Virus record (IMG/VR): IMGVR_UViG_3300001371_000004
Coordinates: 1-33,709 of that record
DNA: 33,709 bases
Source: a virus
Direction: 5' to 3' (one strand)
Position 1 is the stretch's first letter. Each line of letters opens with the position of its first letter. A program made the translations under genes and the position numbers. The notes beneath the pieces were generated by a model. The model was not told where the DNA came from. It searched no databases and saw nothing but the letters and a program-made list of their open reading frames with translations. Below are positions 4,628-33,622 of this stretch, piece by piece.

Positions 4628-5401
4628 CTATGCGATACTCGAACAAATACCGATACACTCTATTTCTTTTTCATCGTCTGTGTCGTAATATGATGACAAT
4701 TCCCTTCGTTCTATCCTTCCACGAAAGGTTGCAAGAGTTTCATCTTTGAAAAATGAGATGTCTTTGCCGAGATACTCTCTAATTTGTCTTTCTACTCGTT
4801 CTCGTTCCGCATAGACTTCTGGAAGTTTCTCGTAAAGAAGTTTCCACTGTTTTTTCCCCGCACGAACGCACCCACCAGAACAGTTATTGTGCAGAAATCC
4901 CAACCTGTAAAGAAGTGGCTCTTGAATTTTTGCCGTGTTTAGAAATTCGCTAATTTGTTGTTTGTTAATATTCTCTCGGATAATTGGAAAAGTCAACTTC
5001 GGCCATTTCCCCGTTTTTGCGGCAACATTTTGATAAACTCCAACAAGTCTAATCGCTCTATGCGCCTCATCAGCACCGATACCGAACACAAGTGTATCAC
5101 CATCTTTGTAGAACTTTTGCAATCGTTCGGCTTTTAAAATACGGGAACAGAAAGGCATACGGTTATTCGCCAAAGCGTTGTTGTCATAAAAAAGCTGCTC
5201 AGGACTACGACCATCAGAATCATATGTTATAGGATGATTGAAATATTTTGATAGTTCATCCATAAAACGGTACAAATCTGGATGTTCCCATTTTGTATCA
5301 TTAAAATATAAAACGACATCTTCTTTTGGATAGTTTTTCAATGCCCAGTCCGCACACCAAGCCGAAGCCTTACCGCCACTAATTGCTACTATGACACTCA
5401 T
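4628..5401 (-). CDS. PP-loop ATPase, PAPS-reductase family
   Basis: A 257-residue protein of the phosphoadenosine-phosphosulfate reductase fold. Residues 2-9 (VIVAISGGKAS) form the PP-loop (SGGxxS) that binds ATP pyrophosphate; an FNDT motif follows at about 35, and a CSGGC pattern at about 180 resembles the Cys/Gly segment of phage members. Family enzymes adenylate or reduce sulfur compounds, and relatives work in tRNA thiolation and DNA phosphorothioation (DndC). No Dnd partners are present, so phosphorothioation is not supported. The start at ATG 5401 is set by GGAGGG just upstream. The gene stands alone between direct repeats, suggesting that it came as a cassette. The exact substrate is unknown. 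Confidence 0.8.
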   Translation of the reverse strand: MSVIVAISGGKASAWCADWALKNYPKEDVVLYFNDTKWEHPDLYRFMDELSKYFNHPITYDSDGRSPEQLFYDNNALANNRMPFCSRILKAERLQKFYKDGDTLVFGIGADEAHRAIRLVGVYQNVAAKTGKWPKLTFPIIRENINKQQISEFLNTAKIQEPLLYRLGFLHNNCSGGCVRAGKKQWKLLYEKLPEVYAERERVERQIREYLGKDISFFKDETLATFRGRIERRELSSYYDTDDEKEIECIGICSSIA

Positions 5402-7651: not shown

Positions 7652-8665
7652 ATGGCATATTTATTTGAACGTAACGGAAAAATTTATATCGGTTGGTATG
7701 ACCGGCATTCTGGCAAGCGGTTAAAGAAAAAGACAAAATTCCCAACCACATCTTCCGGTTGGCGTGAAGCAAAAAATTTCAAAAAGAAGTTCGAGCATCA
7801 TCTCGACGATGAAAAATTCGCGATGCAATTCTCCCTCGCTATGGACCCTATCCCTACACTATCCACAGCGATGTTCGAATTCTACGATGCCAGAGATATT
7901 AAACCGAATACAAAAATAATTTATGAAGTCTGCTTAAAATACCTTATAAAAATTTGTGGGGATAAAAAGGTAAACCAATACAGAGAACGAGATTATCTTA
8001 AACTGCTTGCCCATTTTAATCAAGTCGGATTGGCGATAAATTCAATTAATACATATACTCGGCATATCCACATTATTTTTAATTTCTTTCAAAAGAAGAA
8101 TTATCTTAAAGAAAATATCTTTAGAATAACAAAAGCACTCGAAAAACCTGTGCTTATAATTCCGGCAAAGTCCATCGAAATAATTCTTAAATATTTCCGG
8201 GAGCATAACCTTCAGCAATACTACATTGTAAAATTTTTATACCTCTCGGGCTTCCGTAAATCGTCAGCCGTTAGCTTAACATGGGATTGTATCAATAAGC
8301 AACAGAACATAATTAACGTGCCGAATATCAAACGTGCTCGCATCGACATATTCCCCATAACCAAACAACTCGCTTCACTCTTCAAGGAAATGGGGAATCC
8401 GCAGACTAAAAAGCAAAAGATTTTCGGATACAAGGGAACCTATAGCTTATCGTTTTGGAAACGAGCGATGCAAAAATTGGGAATGAACCATACACTTCAC
8501 CAGCTTCGCAAGACGTTCATTACAAAATTAGTCAATTCTGGCATAAGCGTATATGATGCTTCATTTTTGGCGGGTCATAAAAATATTCGCACGACATTAA
8601 AATATTATACCGTTGCGGATGTCCAGCGAATGAAAGACGAGATTGAAAAGCGAGTGAAGTTCTGA
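7652..8665 (+). CDS. int: tyrosine-family integrase
   Basis: A 337-residue tyrosine recombinase that integrates and excises the phage at attP. The N-terminal arm-binding domain (residues 1-60, with WYDRHSGKRLKKKTKF) and SAM-like core-binding domain (about 65-155) precede the catalytic domain. Catalytic residues are visible: R202 (LSGFRKSS), H283 and R286 (HQLRK), H309 (AGH) and the nucleophile at Y318 or Y319. GGAGA precedes its ATG. The gene is complete, and attP with matching arm repeats follows immediately, so the recombinase and its site form an intact module. Confidence 0.95.
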   Translation: MAYLFERNGKIYIGWYDRHSGKRLKKKTKFPTTSSGWREAKNFKKKFEHHLDDEKFAMQFSLAMDPIPTLSTAMFEFYDARDIKPNTKIIYEVCLKYLIKICGDKKVNQYRERDYLKLLAHFNQVGLAINSINTYTRHIHIIFNFFQKKNYLKENIFRITKALEKPVLIIPAKSIEIILKYFREHNLQQYYIVKFLYLSGFRKSSAVSLTWDCINKQQNIINVPNIKRARIDIFPITKQLASLFKEMGNPQTKKQKIFGYKGTYSLSFWKRAMQKLGMNHTLHQLRKTFITKLVNSGISVYDASFLAGHKNIRTTLKYYTVADVQRMKDEIEKRVKF

Positions 8666-8670
8666 AGGAA

Positions 8671-8899
8671 TGTGTCCCTAATGTGTCTCATTTCAAAAGA
8701 AAAATTTTCGGAAGGAAATAATAAAAAGCCATAACTTATTTTAATTTAATAACTTAATTTTGTCGGAACGGGGGGATTTGAACCCCCGACCACTTGACCC
8801 CCAGTAATATCGAATATACCTTTTCATTATTTACAGCCCGCTTGCAAGGTTTTTTTTTCGCAATTCATACATTCTTCTTACACTTTGTGTCCCTAATGT
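8671..8899. other. attP attachment region: tRNA-derived core with flanking arm sites
   Basis: The core is a tRNA 3' half at 8763-8804. It is flanked by two exact direct copies of TGTGTCCCTAATGT at 8671-8684 and 8886-8899. Inside each copy two AATGTGTC-like elements repeat with 11-base spacing, giving four candidate arm-type integrase sites, two on each side. The region lies 5 bases beyond the integrase stop. Both arms together around one core mean an unintegrated attP rather than attL or attR. Confidence 0.8.
8763..8804 (-). pseudogene. 3' half of tRNA-Pro (GGG), attP core
   Basis: On the minus strand the sequence gives anticodon loop CTGGGGG, 3' anticodon strand TCAAG, variable loop TGGTC, T arm GGGGG-TTCAAAT-CCCCC, acceptor strand CGTTCCG, discriminator A, then CA. 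A G72 implying C1 is typical of tRNA-Pro, and anticodon GGG fits. No D arm or 5' half precedes it. Thus the phage restores the 3' half of a host tRNA-Pro on integration, with crossover likely in or near the anticodon loop. Confidence 0.8.
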
Positions 8900-10195: not shown

Positions 10196-10717
10196 TCAAT
10201 CAATCTTTCGGCGTAGCCTAGTTAACCAGCCCTTACCGAATTTCTTGAATTTCCTTCTACTGCGATAATAAATTTCGAGTGCAAGAATATAGCGGATATA
10301 TAAATTGTCCTTATAATTATTTACTCCAGCCAGCGTTAGCGGTCCGAATATTCCATCCTGTTGAACGGCGACTATTTTTTGAAGAAGCTTCACTGCCCGG
10401 CGCTTCCCGATATTAACGCCCACATCGAAAAGTCTGATGGCGAGTTTCGCATCGATAATTTCGTCATAAAATTTATTCCAATACTTTTTTCTGTAAAAAT
10501 CTTTCGTCAGCGTGCGTGCCGTCAGCACGTCGCCTTTTTTTATTGCACGATAAACTTTCCAAAAAGTAACCGGATGATAATGTACAGCGATACCGAATAT
10601 AGTCATCCCGCCGATATCGTCCGGGTCATCAGAGAACCAGCCTTCATTTTCGCGTAAGAATAAATATGCCTTATCGAAGCGAGTGATTTCCAACTCTATC
10701 GGAAATGTCCTTCCCAT
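10196..10717 (-). CDS. endolysin, GH108-type N-acetylmuramidase
   Basis: A 173-residue muramidase that cuts peptidoglycan at lysis. The GH108 signature is visible at residues 22-43: RENEGWFSDDPDDIGGMTIFGIA, where E25 fits the catalytic glutamate and DP-DDIGG the following loop. The C-terminal half (about 110-165) matches the PG_binding_3 type (QDGIFGPLTLAGVNN). There is no signal peptide, so a holin is needed for access to the wall. GAGAGG precedes ATG. It ends the lysis cassette downstream of a spanin and membrane proteins. Confidence 0.85.
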   Translation of the reverse strand: MGRTFPIELEITRFDKAYLFLRENEGWFSDDPDDIGGMTIFGIAVHYHPVTFWKVYRAIKKGDVLTARTLTKDFYRKKYWNKFYDEIIDAKLAIRLFDVGVNIGKRRAVKLLQKIVAVQQDGIFGPLTLAGVNNYKDNLYIRYILALEIYYRSRRKFKKFGKGWLTRLRRKID

Positions 10718-10744: not shown

Positions 10745-11218
10745 TTAATTTTTTAACCATCTCCACAAAAAACCGATGAATAAAAGTAAACAGCCAATGA
10801 TAACCAGCCACTTTATATCATCCCAGAAAGTTTTTTTCTCGATATACTTTGTCGTGCGAATTGTGTCCCTGTCATAAATCACTTTCGGTTTAGTTTTTAT
10901 CTCCATCTCGAGCTTGCGCTTCAAGGCACTATAACGTATCCATAGACTCGCATTCTTTCGTTCAAGCTCCACGTTGAGGTTGCAATACCTTTCGAGAATA
11001 GATGCCGTATCACATTGTGGGGTTGGTTCGAAAATCAACGGCGAGTAATCATCGCCGACTATGCCCTGTGCATCTACATACTCGATAATTTTAATCGTGT
11101 CGGCAGGTACGATATGCTTCTCATCCCTTACTATCCTTTCCTCTAACTCCACACTCCCACAGCATCCAGCGATTACCAGCGATAAAATTATCGCTATCGA
11201 ATTTAATTTGTAATTCAT
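10745..11218 (-). CDS. candidate single-protein spanin (u-spanin) lipoprotein
   Basis: A 157-residue protein that probably joins inner and outer membranes in the last step of lysis. The start at ATG 11218 has AGGA 5 bases upstream and gives a lipoprotein signal: NYKLNS, a hydrophobic core, then lipobox IAGC with C19 as the lipidated residue. The middle (about 85-125) is a charged coiled-coil-like stretch. Residues about 133-152 form a C-terminal membrane helix followed by WRWLKN. N-terminal lipid plus C-terminal helix is the u-spanin layout (as in phage T1). A longer frame would run through the tRNA gene and is rejected. Placed directly upstream of the endolysin. Confidence 0.8.
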   Translation of the reverse strand: MNYKLNSIAIILSLVIAGCCGSVELEERIVRDEKHIVPADTIKIIEYVDAQGIVGDDYSPLIFEPTPQCDTASILERYCNLNVELERKNASLWIRYSALKRKLEMEIKTKPKVIYDRDTIRTTKYIEKKTFWDDIKWLVIIGCLLLFIGFLWRWLKN

Positions 11219-11244
11219 AATTCCTAATTCATAATTAATTATTG

Positions 11245-11316
11245 TGGTGAGGGCAGGACTCGAACCTGCAACCTCCGGCTTATGAAACCAGCGAGCTGCC
11301 ATTGCTCCACCCCACT
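11245..11316 (-). tRNA. tRNA-Met (CAT), initiator-like
   Basis: A complete 72-base cloverleaf: acceptor AGTGGGG/CCTCACC, D arm GAGC-AATGGCA-GCTC, anticodon stem CTGGT/GCCGG with loop TTCATAA, variable AGGTT, T arm GCAGG-TTCGAGT-CCTGC, discriminator A; CCA is not encoded. Two initiator hallmarks are present: an unpaired 1-72 position (A and C) and a purine-pyrimidine 11-24 pair (A-T). The TGGAGCA, GCTCG and CATAA blocks match E. coli tRNA-fMet. The third hallmark, three G-C pairs at the base of the anticodon stem, is partly kept (G-C, G-C, T-G). It lies between spanin and holin-like genes. Confidence 0.9.
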
Positions 11317-11321
11317 AATAT

Positions 11322-11636
11322 TTATTTCAGCCCTATCTTTCCACTACCCATTGATTTTAACTTTCCGATGATGGCTCTCCCCTTTTCTGTGTATATCAGA
11401 AAAACGAAAAGCCAAGTAAAAATAAATTGAATTATAGAATCTGCAATCGCTCCTTCCAAATTGTAGAAGACGAAAAACGATAGCACGGTATAAGCGAATG
11501 CGAAAAATAAAACAATCCCATCCTTGCTTCTGCCCTTCTTACAGAAGCCAAGCGTCTGAACCGCATATATTGACAGTGCGGTTAGTATCAGCGTAACGAG
11601 AAAAACTTCCCATTGAAAATATTTTAATAATTCCAT
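11322..11636 (-). CDS. three-helix membrane protein, candidate holin
   Basis: A 104-residue protein with three predicted membrane helices (about 11-29, 40-60, 67-84) and a short basic C-terminus (GKLKSMGSGKIGLK). Size, topology and position in the same transcript just before spanin and endolysin fit a class I holin, which forms inner-membrane holes to release the signal-less endolysin. AGAGG precedes ATG. Several other small membrane proteins follow upstream, so which one is the holin cannot be fixed from sequence. Confidence 0.6.
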   Translation of the reverse strand: MELLKYFQWEVFLVTLILTALSIYAVQTLGFCKKGRSKDGIVLFFAFAYTVLSFFVFYNLEGAIADSIIQFIFTWLFVFLIYTEKGRAIIGKLKSMGSGKIGLK

Positions 11637-11640
11637 TTTA

Positions 11641-11934
11641 TTACCTCTTTTTTATTCGGTTCAATGTTTGAATTACCGTGTCTTTAATTATCCGTGAAAA
11701 TAATTTCGTATCGGTCAAGTCGTCTTTAACTCGACTTATCCTATCTAGTATATCGACCTTCAATTCTGCAATATCCTTTTTTATATCTTCAAACCTATTG
11801 AGATAATTACTTCTGACCTCCTGAATATTTACTTCATTGGCATCTATACGTCCCCACATCTTCCGAAGTGTGAACATCATTCCGCTTGTCACTAAAAAAA
11901 ATAATGCCGAAACTATAATCTGAAAAGCATCCAT
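11641..11934 (-). CDS. membrane-anchored coiled-coil protein of the lysis region
   Basis: A 97-residue protein with one N-terminal membrane helix (about 4-22, IIVSALFFLVTSGMMF), a basic stop, then a long coiled coil (30-95, NIQEVRSNYLNRFEDIKKDI and on). This resembles holin-associated proteins of the XhlA kind or an antiholin. GAGGAG precedes ATG. Its start overlaps the end of the next upstream gene by 22 bases, so they are probably coupled. Exact role not shown. Confidence 0.6.
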   Translation of the reverse strand: MDAFQIIVSALFFLVTSGMMFTLRKMWGRIDANEVNIQEVRSNYLNRFEDIKKDIAELKVDILDRISRVKDDLTDTKLFSRIIKDTVIQTLNRIKKR

Positions 11935-21500: not shown

Positions 21501-22421
21501 TTAAACAAAATAAATTTGTATTTCATCGTTACCAGCTAATGGATGAGCGGAAAATTTTATTTCCTGTGTCAAAATATTCTCACGCTCTCCGAGTGCCGGT
21601 GGCTCGAGTATAACCTGACTTAAATACCAGCCACAGACTTTACCCGCACCAGAACCGACTTCGAATGCTATATCTATCTGTTCTGTGTTTTTAAAATAGT
21701 TCCAGTAATCTATGACAGGCGTAATCTCCGGGTCGAAACTTCCTTTCACTTCGCGCCCGCCGATAAAGTATTCACTGACACCACGTGCATTATTCGCATT
21801 CGGACGCTTATTAACCACGTTACCGATATCTACCGAAACTTTGGAAATTATAGGGAAAAGTGAATCATAGTCGAAATATGCATTCGCAAATATATTCGGA
21901 TAGCCTGTCTCGAACGTAGGTGTTGGCAATGCGGCAGTCGTCGGGGCTTCGTATAAACCGGTGAATTCGAAATCGAGTTTGCAAATTTCATTTACGGTAA
22001 AATCCGATTTGAATGTTCCCCTCGCACCGCGTAATTTATAAAGCTTCCCGTCCAGATAGTAATATATCGTAACCGATTCGGCGGTCGATTGTGTCGACAA
22101 GGGATTATAAGCCACAGATAATCCTGGGGCGATAACTTCAGCCATATTACATGCCCTTAAAAGAGCGCCTATCCGTGGAGGAACACCAGCAGAACCACTC
22201 GCTTTCAATTCCACAGAAAAACTAATCTTCTGACCTTCGTAAACATTCACACCACCGTACATCCCATACCAGGGCTTAACCGGATCGCGAGGTTTCTTTT
22301 CACCGGTTAGTTCGTACTTCAGTTCGTAAGCCAACATCGCATTGTTGGCGGGAGTCGGCAGGGCATCTACACCGTAAGTCGTTTCGACTTTCGCCAATAT
22401 AATCGCTTTCTTTGGATGCAT
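21501..22421 (-). CDS. major tail tube protein
   Basis: A 306-residue protein with GGAGGAATAATT before ATG. The N-terminus (KKAIILAKVETTYGVDALPT then PANNAML) is characteristic of large major tail proteins in siphophages; the body is beta-rich with the expected domain (VYEGQKISFSVELKASGS, then PRIGALLRACN). The C-terminal third may be a separate Ig-like outer domain. It forms stacked hexamers around the tape measure. Position between tail completion and chaperone genes supports it. Confidence 0.85.
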   Translation of the reverse strand: MHPKKAIILAKVETTYGVDALPTPANNAMLAYELKYELTGEKKPRDPVKPWYGMYGGVNVYEGQKISFSVELKASGSAGVPPRIGALLRACNMAEVIAPGLSVAYNPLSTQSTAESVTIYYYLDGKLYKLRGARGTFKSDFTVNEICKLDFEFTGLYEAPTTAALPTPTFETGYPNIFANAYFDYDSLFPIISKVSVDIGNVVNKRPNANNARGVSEYFIGGREVKGSFDPEITPVIDYWNYFKNTEQIDIAFEVGSGAGKVCGWYLSQVILEPPALGERENILTQEIKFSAHPLAGNDEIQIYFV

Positions 22422-25687: not shown

Positions 25688-27264
25688 CACATCACCTTTA
25701 TTTGTTTTGCAATTTTTAATATTTTACTCTGGTCGTCTTCCAATCCTTCGCCGTCCGGGTCGTCCTGCTCGACATCTCCGAGTGAGTCGTCTGTTTCAGT
25801 ATTCCCTTTAGTTAAACCTCGCCTCTCGATTTCTTTCTTTTCATATTCCAACTGGTCGAGATGCTCGTGTAAATCGACACCTTTTTCGTCCAATATCTCT
25901 TGCAGTGTTTCGATATAATTTTCATTCGCCTTCACGTGAGCATTGATTTCCTTAAATGGCTCCAGTCCCTTCCATCGTCTGCCCGTCCATTTGGAATTAT
26001 TGAATTTATCATACTTCTCGATTGGCAATTTAACCGCATCCGTAAGCAATGCCATATCCAGCCACTCGGGAGTTATATCTTCGAGGAAATGTTCGATGAA
26101 CCATGCTTGAATAGCTTTCCAGGAATCCTGCTCATCATACTGCCCACCCTTGTATGCGGAGAAATTTATCGCGGCATAATCGTTAGCGAGTCGATTATAA
26201 TTTACATCGAACCCTGACGCGACCCCTTGCAGGATGGTATCGCGGAATGCTTTGTGTTGGTCACTCGGATATTTGGGATCGACGTTTTCATAAGTGTAAC
26301 CGTAGGGAACAATAAAGGTTTCGCCAGGCTCTCTATCCTGAATAATATTATTATCGCCATCCCTTTCGCCAGCGATGGAATCCTGGCTTGCATCTTCATT
26401 CTGCGTTAAAACATCAGAAGTCATCGCGGCTAATCTCGCATTGATAAGCGAACTCTCCTCGAAACCGAGCAACATTTTTAATCGTATCGCCACGGGTAAA
26501 AACCAAGTGATGCCACGCACTTGCGAAAAACTTTCACGCTTGAATAAATGGATGATGCGGTCGGCGGATATTCGCTCATATTCTTTCGAGGTCGATGGAA
26601 AATAATACATATCGCCTCCCGCCTTTACCTTCGTGAAATAATATGCGACCGGTTTTCTTGCCGGTGTGAACTCGATGCCCATCTGAATATAATTGCCATT
26701 GTCGAGTATTTTATTCAGGTTCACATCGCAATAGTCCGACTCGATTATTTGCAAGGCATATCCGAATTTGTTCTGGCTCGGCTTTTTAATTTTCTTTGCA
26801 AACACCTCGCCATCTACGGGAACGGTAGCGACCAGCAATCTGCACATTTCGTTGAACGAAATATTCTCCGTTACCGTGCAATACTTTTTCTTTTGCCACT
26901 CCTTCATCGCATCCTGTATCATATTATTTGCCATATTATCGAGTACCTTCTTGGTATTGCCTTCCTTATCCTTAACAAAATCCACAGCCTTACTGCGAAA
27001 TTTGAAACCTTCCGAACCAACGACATTAGCGGAGACCATCCGAGTGAATTTTCGAGCGTATGGGTCATCTGCTACCAATTGTCTTGCTCGTGCTCGACAC
27101 GTAACTAGCCCGGTGCGAATATCATTATTAAGAGCGGTGAGAGTACTTTTCCAATCGGCGGTTAATCTGTCGACCTTCGCCATCGCAAATCCACGCCCGA
27201 ACCTACCATAACTCCTGGAAGATTTACTCTTGAAAAGGTTTAATATTTTATCTACGAATTTCAA
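25687..27264 (-). CDS. portal protein, lambda type
   Basis: A 525-residue protein forming the DNA gate of the capsid. N-terminal YGRFGRGFAMAKVDRLTADW and the following RARARQLVADDPYARKF segment (about 55-75) are hallmarks of the lambda gpB family; later WFLPVAIRLKMLLGFEES and FDVNYNRLANDYAAINFSA are also typical. The start is TTG (27264), with GGAAGGA 6 bases upstream and overlap with the stop of the preceding gene. The C-terminus is acidic (DDSLGDVEQDDPDGEG) and ends with a basic IAKQIKVM. Confidence 0.9.
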   Translation of the reverse strand: MKFVDKILNLFKSKSSRSYGRFGRGFAMAKVDRLTADWKSTLTALNNDIRTGLVTCRARARQLVADDPYARKFTRMVSANVVGSEGFKFRSKAVDFVKDKEGNTKKVLDNMANNMIQDAMKEWQKKKYCTVTENISFNEMCRLLVATVPVDGEVFAKKIKKPSQNKFGYALQIIESDYCDVNLNKILDNGNYIQMGIEFTPARKPVAYYFTKVKAGGDMYYFPSTSKEYERISADRIIHLFKRESFSQVRGITWFLPVAIRLKMLLGFEESSLINARLAAMTSDVLTQNEDASQDSIAGERDGDNNIIQDREPGETFIVPYGYTYENVDPKYPSDQHKAFRDTILQGVASGFDVNYNRLANDYAAINFSAYKGGQYDEQDSWKAIQAWFIEHFLEDITPEWLDMALLTDAVKLPIEKYDKFNNSKWTGRRWKGLEPFKEINAHVKANENYIETLQEILDEKGVDLHEHLDQLEYEKKEIERRGLTKGNTETDDSLGDVEQDDPDGEGLEDDQSKILKIAKQIKVM

Positions 27265-30799: not shown

Positions 30800-31226
30800 C
30801 CCTTATTTTATACAGTGCCTCTTTTATGATTGTTGCAATTTCACTTTTAGTTTTAGCCCTCAATAATTTATTCGCTTCTTTAATCAAAATAGCATCCAGC
30901 AATTTATTGTATGTACTGAATTGCTTAAACCACGAATCTTCTATCAAATCAACCGGAAGATATTTCCCAGCATTGACGAGAAATTCAAGTTCTTGTTTGT
31001 TCGCGAGTGCGATTTCTTTTCGTGCCTTCGCTTCACTATATCCTTCAGTATTGTTTTTATTTTTATTCTCTTCTTTGAGAAAACGAACGTACCAATTAAC
31101 ACATTCCTTAAGGTCATACTGCCCGTGCCCCTCCTTCGGAAAGCCACGTTCCTTCACCAGTCGATTTATCCATCGCGGTTCTACCAACAGCAAGTCTGCG
31201 ATTTGATTTAATGTTATTAATGGCAT
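30633..31226 (-). CDS. terS: terminase small subunit, lambda Nu1-like
   Basis: A 197-residue protein. Residues 4-32 (ITLNQIADLLLVEPRWINRL, then VKERGFPKEG) form the winged helix-turn-helix that binds cos in Nu1; the middle (65-135) is helical and includes the EARKEIALANKQELEFLVNAGKYLP segment typical of this family, and the C-terminus is extremely basic (about 165-197). It recognises packaging sites and hands DNA to TerL. The C-terminal 55 codons overlap TerL in another frame, so the basic tail may be only partly constrained. ATG overlaps the upstream radical SAM stop. Confidence 0.85.
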   Translation of the reverse strand: MPLITLNQIADLLLVEPRWINRLVKERGFPKEGHGQYDLKECVNWYVRFLKEENKNKNNTEGYSEAKARKEIALANKQELEFLVNAGKYLPVDLIEDSWFKQFSTYNKLLDAILIKEANKLLRAKTKSEIATIIKEALYKIRDEFATTDISQSDTGENNIKEPEVTRKQSAKSSKAKGTAKRKRVGKKKSSNRTTRR

Positions 31227-31966
31227 TTGTCATTTAAATTCTTATCAAGATAAATCATTAAATCTTTTTTGATATAAAAATTTTTGTTAGTAGCCCTCAG
31301 TAATTTTATTACTCTAAAAGCAAAATCTTTCCAATCGATATTCGATTTAATATGATTTAATTTGCCGACTTTATATTCATCTACACAGTGCAAGGTGCGA
31401 TATATCATTCTCAATGAAGCCTCGGGATAAATCACCGGCTCGATGGATGCCCACGTCTTTATGTCATTGTCTTTTAATATTTCGAGAGCCTCAACTCTTT
31501 CCAATGGCAACGCAGCACCCGGTTCATTTTCTAAACTCGAAGCGTTATCGTTAAACGTTAGCGATGCACCGACTTTAATTCGGTCACCAAATTGTTTGAA
31601 CAAATCTAAATCTTGTAAAATACGCTTACCCCCCTTCGATAGAATTGTTACTCGGATATTATTCGCCAGTAACAGTTTAAGAACTTTCCGTGTTAATTTT
31701 TTTTTATCGTTGTATTTACAATACGGGTCGCCAGTGAACATCATCAGCACTGGCTCATCGCAATTTTTATATTTGGTTACTTCTTTTTTTAATGTTGCGA
31801 TAACATCCTTCCTTTCGGTTACAACGTTATGATTATACTTGCGGTCTCTTGCAAATATTTTTGGCACATAACAATAGGAACATCCATGGTCACATCCACG
31901 GTAATGGTTAAGAGCCAGCGGTGAATATTCCATTGCTCTGCCTTTGGGCTTATAAATAATGCTCAT
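31217..31966 (-). CDS. radical SAM protein, SPL-like
   Basis: A 249-residue radical SAM enzyme. C24, C28 and C31 in CDHGCSYCYVP form the CxxxCxxC [4Fe-4S] cluster motif. Further motifs include MFTGDPYC, TILSKGG (SAM binding) and WASIEPV. The family includes spore photoproduct lyase and many phage members of unknown substrate, possibly DNA base modification or repair. GAGG precedes ATG. It lies between two terminase-like genes, in a module of DNA-active proteins along with the methyltransferase. Substrate unknown. Confidence 0.85.
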   Translation of the reverse strand: MSIIYKPKGRAMEYSPLALNHYRGCDHGCSYCYVPKIFARDRKYNHNVVTERKDVIATLKKEVTKYKNCDEPVLMMFTGDPYCKYNDKKKLTRKVLKLLLANNIRVTILSKGGKRILQDLDLFKQFGDRIKVGASLTFNDNASSLENEPGAALPLERVEALEILKDNDIKTWASIEPVIYPEASLRMIYRTLHCVDEYKVGKLNHIKSNIDWKDFAFRVIKLLRATNKNFYIKKDLMIYLDKNLNDKCH

Positions 31967-31973
31967 CTATACC

Positions 31974-32318
31974 TCATTCATTATATTCGTAGTCACTGTT
32001 GTTGGGCTTAGTATCTTCCGGTGGTTTTAACTTTAGCAAATTGTTTATTTCTTTTTGAATCCTTAAGCAGGCAGTATAGTCGTGGTCAGTAAGAGCATTT
32101 GCGAAAAGCCGATGCAATCGTGTGATAGATTTTCCAAACTCGACTCTCTTATCGAGTTGAGCTATTTTATTGTAGTAATACAGATTTGCTTCGTGAACAT
32201 ATTTATCGATTTCCTCTACTGATAAATCATGAGTTTCACTTAATGCCTTGCCAATTTCTTTAAGTGTATAACCTCGATAAATATATTCAATTGTTTTTTT
32301 TACAATTTGTTCATCCAT
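31974..32318 (-). CDS. second TerS-like helical protein
   Basis: A 114-residue helical protein. The N-terminus (VKKTIEYIYRGYTLKEIGKA) looks like a helix-turn-helix, while RLHRLFANALTDHDYTACLR then IQKEINNLLKL (about 67-97) matches the helical oligomerisation segment in small terminases of other phages. A separate Nu1-like TerS is present at 30633-31226, so this could be a duplicate packaging regulator or an unrelated DNA-binding protein. Start overlaps the methyltransferase end. The assignment is by pattern only. Confidence 0.5.
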   Translation of the reverse strand: MDEQIVKKTIEYIYRGYTLKEIGKALSETHDLSVEEIDKYVHEANLYYYNKIAQLDKRVEFGKSITRLHRLFANALTDHDYTACLRIQKEINNLLKLKPPEDTKPNNSDYEYNE

Positions 32319-33622
32319 ATTTTCTCGATATTAAATTTTCGATTAAGACATTTAATTTTAGCATTTGGAAAAAATTCTTTGTAGCGGCGAATTATAACGT
32401 CAATGTAAAATGGATCGTACTCCATCATATAACATCTGCGGTCGACATTATTCGCAGCGAGCAATGTACTACCACTGCCTCCGAATACATCGAGAATAAT
32501 ATCACCGACTTTCGAAGTATTTCTGATTGCACGGAGTGCAAGATTAATTGGCTTCTGCGTGGGATGAACATATTTACTCGTGTTATCTCTCATTTCGTAC
32601 CACACGTTTAAGTAGTCAACGAATGTCATTTTGTCCATATTCAGCCAAACGTTACGTTCTTTTGCAGTTAGTTTCCTATTATAATATGGTCGTTTGCCTT
32701 CCTTCCAAAAGAAACCAGCACGTTCATAACAATTATGATAAGTTCCATGCCCAAAAACGATACCATTCTTCAGCCAAACAATATCGGGTTGGATGCTATA
32801 ATTATTTATCCTAAAAACTGACTTGACGATATCTTCAAAACTTCCCCCCATCCAAAAATAAATTGGTGTTTTTGAAGCGGTGAATTTATATAAATTCTCA
32901 ACTACTGCCGCTATGAAATAATGATAACCGGTTAATGTCTTATCGTCTTCGAATGATTTGAGGTGTCCGTACTTGCCTTCGTCATAAGAATTGGCAGCGC
33001 TTGATTTATAATTAATATTGTATGGCGGATCCGTAAATACCAAATGTGCTCTGTTCTTCCCCAGCAATGTTTCATAACTCTTGCTCTGAGTTGCGTCCGC
33101 ACATAATAAAATATGCCTGCCGTCGATATCAAAGCAATCGCCAATTTTGCAATGCACTATTGCTTCTTTATTTTTAAGAATAGGTTCTTCGCTATTACCT
33201 TCCTTTCCGAAATCAACTTCGGGTTCTAAGGCACCATAATCATCAGCAATCTCATCTTCTTTAAAACCCCAGTCCAACAGGTCGTGCATTCCGAAATTGT
33301 GTACAAGTATATCCTTATCCATTTCCCCATGGTTTTTATTCAGACGAATATTTAATTCTTTTACTTCCTCATCGGTGAGCATTCGATTTGGAACCCAGCA
33401 AGCGATAATCTTCTTCCCGAGTTCCATTTCAATACTTCGGCGACTATGACCGCCGATGATTGTGTCGTCAAGATTAATTATAGGTTTTTCAATCAAAGTA
33501 AATTTTTTAATTGATTTTCGAATCTCTGAACGTTGCTCCTGGTTTGCCGTTTGCGGATTTTTAGAATAATCTTTCAAATCCTTTAAGTTTCTTTTTTCAA
33601 GATGCCAATCAAGTTGTTTCAT
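32300..33622 (-). CDS. ParB-like domain fused to beta-class DNA methyltransferase
   Basis: A 440-residue protein. Residues about 10-110 are a ParB/Spo0J N-terminal-like domain (SKNPQTANQEQRSEIRKSIK, then IIGGHSRRSIE). The catalytic part has motif IV DPPYNINY (about 196) before motif I FGGSGST (about 403), the order of beta-class adenine-N6 or cytosine-N4 methyltransferases. GGAGG is 5 bases before ATG. Such fusions are common near phage terminase genes and may protect phage DNA from host restriction or mark packaging sites. No restriction partner is present. Confidence 0.9.
   Translation of the reverse strand: MKQLDWHLEKRNLKDLKDYSKNPQTANQEQRSEIRKSIKKFTLIEKPIINLDDTIIGGHSRRSIEMELGKKIIACWVPNRMLTDEEVKELNIRLNKNHGEMDKDILVHNFGMHDLLDWGFKEDEIADDYGALEPEVDFGKEGNSEEPILKNKEAIVHCKIGDCFDIDGRHILLCADATQSKSYETLLGKNRAHLVFTDPPYNINYKSSAANSYDEGKYGHLKSFEDDKTLTGYHYFIAAVVENLYKFTASKTPIYFWMGGSFEDIVKSVFRINNYSIQPDIVWLKNGIVFGHGTYHNCYERAGFFWKEGKRPYYNRKLTAKERNVWLNMDKMTFVDYLNVWYEMRDNTSKYVHPTQKPINLALRAIRNTSKVGDIILDVFGGSGSTLLAANNVDRRCYMMEYDPFYIDVIIRRYKEFFPNAKIKCLNRKFNIEKIWMNKL

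Follow-up and report, generated by a model that had tools for sequence, protein, structure and literature searches.

Introduction

The locus at positions 11245–11316 raises two linked questions, namely whether a temperate phage here carries its own tRNA for starting protein synthesis, and what is to be made of an anticodon stem that lacks one of the three G-C pairs described as conserved in initiators across all domains of life (PMC7949028). The DNA analysed, called the window in what follows, is a 33.7-kb IMG/VR virus record taken at its full length of 33,709 nucleotides; it comes from a temperate tailed phage, with recognised genes for integrase, large terminase, portal, major capsid, tape measure, and endolysin. 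A sequence-only reading had proposed an initiator-like tRNA-Met with a diverged anticodon stem and, possibly, an altered use of start codons. The initiator-like tRNA is borne out by ARAGORN, by Rfam, by identity elements, by two covariance models, and by comparison with cellular tRNAs, and the diverged stem, also supported, fits a pattern seen across viral initiators; altered start-codon use is the least supported of these ideas. As a single tRNA the gene is of moderate interest. What is new is the viral departure from a three-GC rule that is nearly unbroken in cellular start tRNAs.

The tRNA gene and its neighbourhood

A tRNA-Met(CAT) gene, found by ARAGORN at 11244–11316 on the minus strand and in the same direction as the late genes, is the only tRNA of the window. 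It matches Rfam RF00005 over 11316–11245 (minus) with 58 bits and an E value of 3.3e-10, so that the tRNA call is not a chance one. The gene is 72 nt long, does not encode CCA, and, read from the sequence, forms the cloverleaf AGTGGGG TG GAGC AATGGCA GCTC G CTGGT TTCATAA GCCGG AGGTT GCAGG TTCGAGT CCTGC CCTCACC A, followed by CAA. As had been noted earlier, the 1-72 end is mismatched (A1xC72; the E. coli initiator has C1xA72), the 11-24 pair is A11-U24, and the anticodon stem has two of the three G-C pairs (G29-C41 and G30-C40), the third being U31.G39. The other stem pairs are all standard (20/20), and further features are G2-C71, U32, A37, A38, and A73. Minimum-energy folding of the single strand gave no cloverleaf (z −0.91), a failure that is common for unmodified tRNAs, and was left out of the evidence.

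The 5′ end of the tRNA lies 5 nt past the stop codon of a gene at 11322–11636 (minus), which encodes a small membrane protein of the late/lysis region with no Pfam or PHROG match, and this closeness means that the tRNA is probably cut out of a polycistronic late transcript. Directly downstream, 26 nt after the tRNA, starts the gene of a predicted lipoprotein (MNYKLNSIAIILSLVIAGCC; 10745–11218, minus), which has no family match and whose position and lipobox suggest a possible spanin component; the endolysin gene follows at 10196–10717 (minus; PHROG 315 lysis, E 9.8e-29). The tRNA is thus embedded in a late lysis operon, with which it is probably cotranscribed.

None of the 35 loci of the nearest terminase relatives has a tRNA detectable by ARAGORN, and among 15 whole records of such relatives tRNAs occur in one only, a distant one, which indicates that the tRNA is dispensable for this type of phage. 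A search of IMG/VR for an exact 28-nt pattern of the tRNA gave no match. Elsewhere in the window, a radical SAM protein (31217–31966, minus; 54% identity in the nearest relative, L007:1097-1909) adjoins the terminase small-subunit region as an unusual conserved passenger of the packaging region, and at the packaging end one protein (32300–33622, minus) joins ParB-like and DNA methyltransferase regions (PHROG 498 and 620).

Initiator or elongator

The CAU anticodon, together with the presence of just two of the three G-C pairs, would also fit an elongator tRNA-Met or a tRNA-Ile2 (CAU, lysidine). These would be expected to have a pyrimidine at 11, a purine at 24, and a paired 1-72 end, and all nine CAU elongators of our reference set have C11-G24 (9/9); the window tRNA has instead the purine 11–pyrimidine 24 arrangement of initiators and the weak or unpaired 1-72 end associated with formylation. 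In its whole sequence it is also closer to initiators, because of two covariance models, trained on initiator and on elongator CAU tRNAs from reference genomes, the former gives it 70.7 bits and the latter 58.1, a preference of 12.6 bits. Controls from outside the training sets behaved as expected of their class, with 91.1/67.5 bits (initiator/elongator model) for an initiator of the likely host order (L475) and 60.4/76.6 for a phage elongator (L513), as did two elongators of the training set (L205, 71.7/87.5; L221, 68.1/85.2). The tRNA of phage BUCTxx99, at 69.6/70.0, is not separated by the models, which therefore count as support for the class and not as proof.

One initiator hallmark, the run of three G-C pairs at 29-41, 30-40, and 31-39, is incomplete in the window tRNA. 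Alphaproteobacterial genomes of the reference set have A29-U41 in their own initiators, so this motif is conserved without being absolute, and the tRNA is accordingly called initiator-type. Going by its identity elements and model scores, then, the window tRNA is of the initiator type; elongator Met and Ile2 identities, which we consider highly improbable, are rejected on the same two grounds.

Probable attachment site and likely host

The integrase gene (7652–8665, plus; PHROG 1 integrase, E 5.5e-40) adjoins a stretch at 8763–8804 (minus) that reads as the 3′ half of a tRNA-Pro(GGG) gene, is tRNA-like in both covariance models, and is the probable attP core; in an Rfam scan it gave nothing above a family cut-off. 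Among 296 Bacteroidota genomes, one (G324) has a tRNA-Pro(GGG) gene that contains the last 29 nt of this stretch exactly, and 7 of the 80 genomes of the same family contain a 37-nt match with two mismatches. The initiators of the order to which G324 belongs are characterised by A14-A15, U48, and an unpaired C1xU72, and their genes occur once per genome (57 matches, spread over 56 of the 59 genomes). Judging from the tRNA-Pro match and these initiator features, the host likely belongs in or near this order.

Several phage genes are preceded by clear Shine-Dalgarno motifs (GGAGG/AGGAGG), among them 286–1425, 1711–2244, 11641–11934, 21501–22421, and 32300–33622. Ribosomes of the class Bacteroidia disregard such motifs (PMC9976891), and their presence argues against a host in that class; it points to a host from outside it or else to an unusual phage. 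Scans of viral sequences and genomes for terminase similarity reached identities of at most 48% and pointed to no consistent host.

The attachment site also bears on tRNA-dependent lysogeny, a mechanism (PMC10865867) by which a phage destroys a host tRNA gene, here that of tRNA-fMet, through integration and carries the replacement. That the phage is temperate, encodes an integrase, and has just one tRNA would suit it. The integrase, however, adjoins the tRNA-Pro(GGG) half, whose ~42 nt suffice to rebuild that tRNA; near the integrase there is no shared stretch of 10 nt or more with the fMet gene, which itself lies 2.6 kb off, among the lysis genes. An attP that can rebuild its own gene rules out this mechanism for tRNA-fMet, to which we give next to no credence. 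For the same reason, a reading of the tRNA-fMet as a relic of an att site was rejected: the gene is an intact, initiator-type one in a phage genome, and the attP is elsewhere.

Divergence from the host-type initiator

The sequence-only reading had called for an alignment with the host tRNA-fMet, which was made with the consensus initiator of the likely host order. Over 73 aligned positions 58 are identical and 15 differ. Shared by the two are the CAU anticodon, A11-U24, an unpaired 1-72 end, G2-C71, G29-C41, G30-C40, G26, A37, A38, A73, A14-A15, and U48. The pairs 3-70 (U3-A70 in place of C-G) and 27-43 have changed on both sides and are still Watson-Crick pairs, 31-39 has changed on both sides from G-C to U.G, and 5-68 and 28-42 have become wobble pairs. 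Position 1-72 has gone from CxU to AxC, mismatched in both, position 32 from C to U, and the D loop is one base shorter. As far as this alignment goes, the structure is kept while the sequence has moved.

The 15 differing positions, and the lack of a tRNA in the closest terminase relatives, could also be taken to mean that a captured host initiator gene is drifting neutrally or decaying, with the altered stem as a product of relaxed selection. Such a gene would hardly be expected to show compensated double changes or to keep every stem paired save 1-72, and the same pattern, with G30-C40 retained, recurs in unrelated phages. Decay is thus an improbable explanation.

Anticodon stems of viral and cellular initiators

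The frequency of such stems was read from an IMG/VR scan for the initiator core in which positions 29–31 and 39–41 were left unconstrained. At least 120 contigs matched, and 80 loci were read; relatives were not weighted, the scan order was assumed to be arbitrary, and some of the hits, those that encode CCA and resemble alphaproteobacterial sequences, probably stem from the host, at the edges of prophages. With these provisos, the full three-GC motif is absent from 61 of the 80 viral initiator-like tRNAs read among the at least 120 matches. Listed as 29-41/30-40/31-39, the stems of these 80 are A-U/G-C/G-C in 31, G-C/G-C/G-C in 19, and U-A/G-C/G-C in 16, the remainder having 31-39 changed (13, with base 31 altered in 12 of these) or 30-40 changed (1). 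The commonest change is therefore at 29-41 (47/80), G30-C40 is retained in 79/80, and C39 is kept in most.

Cellular genomes are far more uniform. Base 31 is altered in 2 of 299 Pseudomonadota and in none of 198 Bacteroidota genomes, that is, in 2/497, compared with the 12/80 of the viral sample read among at least 120 matches (Fisher p 1.7e-9), a contrast that is understated because the cellular unit is the genome and not the gene. Both cellular cases (L496 and L497, in the Pseudomonadota genomes G447 and G454) have C31-G39 and A1-U72; L496 adjoins a phage-tail-like gene, and these two initiators may be prophage-borne.

A second IMG/VR scan required that 31 not be G and 39 not be C, with no requirement for pairing. 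In the 80 loci taken among the matches listed, 31-39 is C-G in 26, U.G in 25, A-U in 21, U.U in 6, and U-A in 2, and is thus still paired in 74/80 (binomial p ~1e-19, against 4/9 of the letter combinations). In 146 distinct viral initiator-like tRNAs from the matches listed, the window tRNA included, the stem pairs other than 1-72 are paired in 91–100%, with many two-sided changes, although the D stem was fixed by the scans themselves, as were 29-30/40-41 in the second. Across the same 146, 30-40 is G-C in 145 and 1-72 is paired in just 27%, a signature of formylation (PMC7949028). A mismatch at 1-72 is seen in 54/72 of the viral and 24/25 of the cellular initiators sampled; the particular mismatch A1xC72 was found in none of the 25 parsed cellular initiators and is present in the tRNA of phage Bipolarisk and in other viral tRNAs.

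These counts suggest, tentatively and at somewhat less than even odds, that viral initiators form a recognisable class in which the three-GC rule is repeatedly abandoned, 29-41 and 31-39 varying with pairing kept while G30-C40 and an unpaired 1-72 stay constant, and in which the changes give either resistance to host nucleases that target initiators or a competitive edge for phage initiation. The window tRNA would be one member.

Proposed function

The explanation that we favour, with a probability of roughly two in three, is that the phage carries a working initiator tRNA of its own, descended from a host-type tRNA-fMet, that would supplement or replace the initiator pool late in infection. 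The stems other than 1-72, all paired and with double changes, the position in a late operon, the recurrence in phages, and the retained G30-C40 make a working initiator the most likely reading. The tRNA would be transcribed with the late lysis genes and trimmed from the transcript, receive its CCA from a host enzyme, and be charged with Met by the host MetRS, presumably with CAU and A73 as its recognition elements. Formylation would be enabled by A11-U24 together with the unpaired 1-72 end, and the retained G29-C41 and G30-C40 would place the tRNA in the P site. The benefit may be more initiation capacity late in infection, where the host probably has just one initiator gene.

Formylation requires an unpaired 1-72 and is helped by G2-C71, C3-G70, and A11-U24 (PMC7949028); the window tRNA has all of these but C3-G70, which is U3-A70 and counts against a working initiator. 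In the P site, A1339 and G1338 of 16S rRNA contact the pairs 30-40 and 29-41 (PMC11497404), both intact in the window tRNA, and the position of 31-39 outside this contact may explain its variability. Further points that would weigh against a working initiator are the absence of A1xC72 from the cellular set, the loss of the third G-C pair, the dispensability in relatives, and the indirect assignment of the host.

The weakened closing pair might instead shift the choice of start codon, with more initiation at TTG, ATT, or AUA on phage or host messages, as the sequence-only reading had in part proposed by pointing to candidate TTG and ATT starts. Some of the TTG starts are credible, such as the TTG at 27264 of the portal gene, behind AGGAAGG; TTG is, however, a normal bacterial start codon, and other candidates, such as that of 4628–5401, have a better in-frame ATG. 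Anticodon stems of four base pairs, rare among bacterial tRNA-fMet (82/50,849), have been proposed to relax decoding (PMC13092985), but in the window tRNA U.G pairing still closes the stem, the anticodon is CAU, and bases 33–38 do not differ from those of ordinary initiators. Both pairs that A1339/G1338 read are in place as well, and the mutant that loses discrimination against CUG is altered at 30-40 and not at 31-39 (PMC11497404). Altered start-codon use is thus very unlikely.

A benefit of another sort, compatible with a working initiator, would be resistance to host ribonucleases by which tRNA-fMet is disabled, and the phage would keep the tRNA for that reason. In Shigella and Salmonella, VapC cleaves tRNA-fMet between A38 and C39 (PMC4105405), within the anticodon stem-loop (PMC7180214), and evasion of anticodon nucleases by phage tRNAs has been described before (PMC10264068). 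In the window tRNA this bond is flanked by the changes at 31, 32, and 39 while 29-41 and 30-40 are retained, a setting in which resistance is plausible but putative; the recurrent 31-39 change with pairing kept (74/80 loci) and the viral excess of altered base 31 point the same way. On the other side, according to PMC10264068, tRNA-fMet tends to be left out of phage genomes where it is a VapC target, C39 is mostly kept, and the 29-41 changes, away from the cut, are commoner in the unselected sample, so nuclease evasion cannot be the whole story. We regard it as plausible, if on balance unlikely.

A natural test of which pairs the ribosome needs is provided by the viral initiators, in which the pair that A1339 reads is kept and its neighbours vary. 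They could serve equally to ask whether phages shield initiation from host nucleases, given that the cleavage site of VapC-type toxins lies where the stem is altered.

Comparison with known phage initiator tRNAs

A phage-borne initiator tRNA is of an already known kind, and the earlier remark that phages usually carry elongator tRNAs was overstated in view of the at least 120 IMG/VR contigs with an initiator core, many named phages, and the tRNA-fMet genes published for Sinorhizobium meliloti prophages (PMC11476347, PMC12429752). In a literature of which the coverage was partial, no paper describing the altered anticodon stem of phage initiators was found. Initiator-type tRNAs were identified in Prevotella phage Lak-B8, Streptomyces phage Wakanda (A-U/G-C/C-G), Caulobacter phage Ccr5 (U-A/G-C/G-C), and Pseudomonas phage PaMx74 (G-C/G-C/G.U). 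That of Bacteroides phage LoVE (L504:1001-1076) has a full GC/GC/GC stem and the loop ATCATAG, with A32 and G38 for C32 and A38, which is another change at the VapC cut site. Two canonical tRNA-fMet genes in "Acinetobacter phage MD-2021a" (CAKLQH020000005.1, L498) were discarded, because their neighbours tpiA, secG, rimP, and nusA mark at least that part of the record as bacterial DNA.

Like the window tRNA, the tRNA-fMet of S. meliloti prophages and the tRNA-Met of the Sinorhizobium phage phiLM21 (NC_029046, L505) are initiators and often the sole tRNA of a temperate phage; phiLM21 differs in its U29-A41/G-C/G-C stem, in the G-A at 1-72, and in host and phage type. The annotated tRNA-fMet of Stenotrophomonas phage vB_Sm_QDWS359 (ON331942, L506) is likewise a phage initiator with U32, but it has a canonical GC/GC/GC stem and C1xA72 and adjoins the terminase. 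Mycobacterium phage Bipolarisk (Bixzunavirus, L501) shares the initiator type and the A1xC72 mismatch, and differs in its full GC/GC/GC stem and in belonging to a tRNA array with a peptidyl-tRNA hydrolase gene nearby. There, the hydrolase gene (L501:93-467) and the initiator-type tRNA (1000-1076) may be functionally linked; initiators with a mismatched end resist this enzyme. The same stem variant occurs in the tRNA-Met of Stenotrophomonas phage BUCTxx99 (OR529408, L509), which has G29-C41, G30-C40, U31.G39, and U32 and a purine 11–pyrimidine 24 pair, but differs from the window tRNA in its A1-U72 end, in standing beside tRNA-Asn and tRNA-Gln, in being annotated just as tRNA-Met, and in scoring almost equally with the two models (69.6 vs 70.0 bits).
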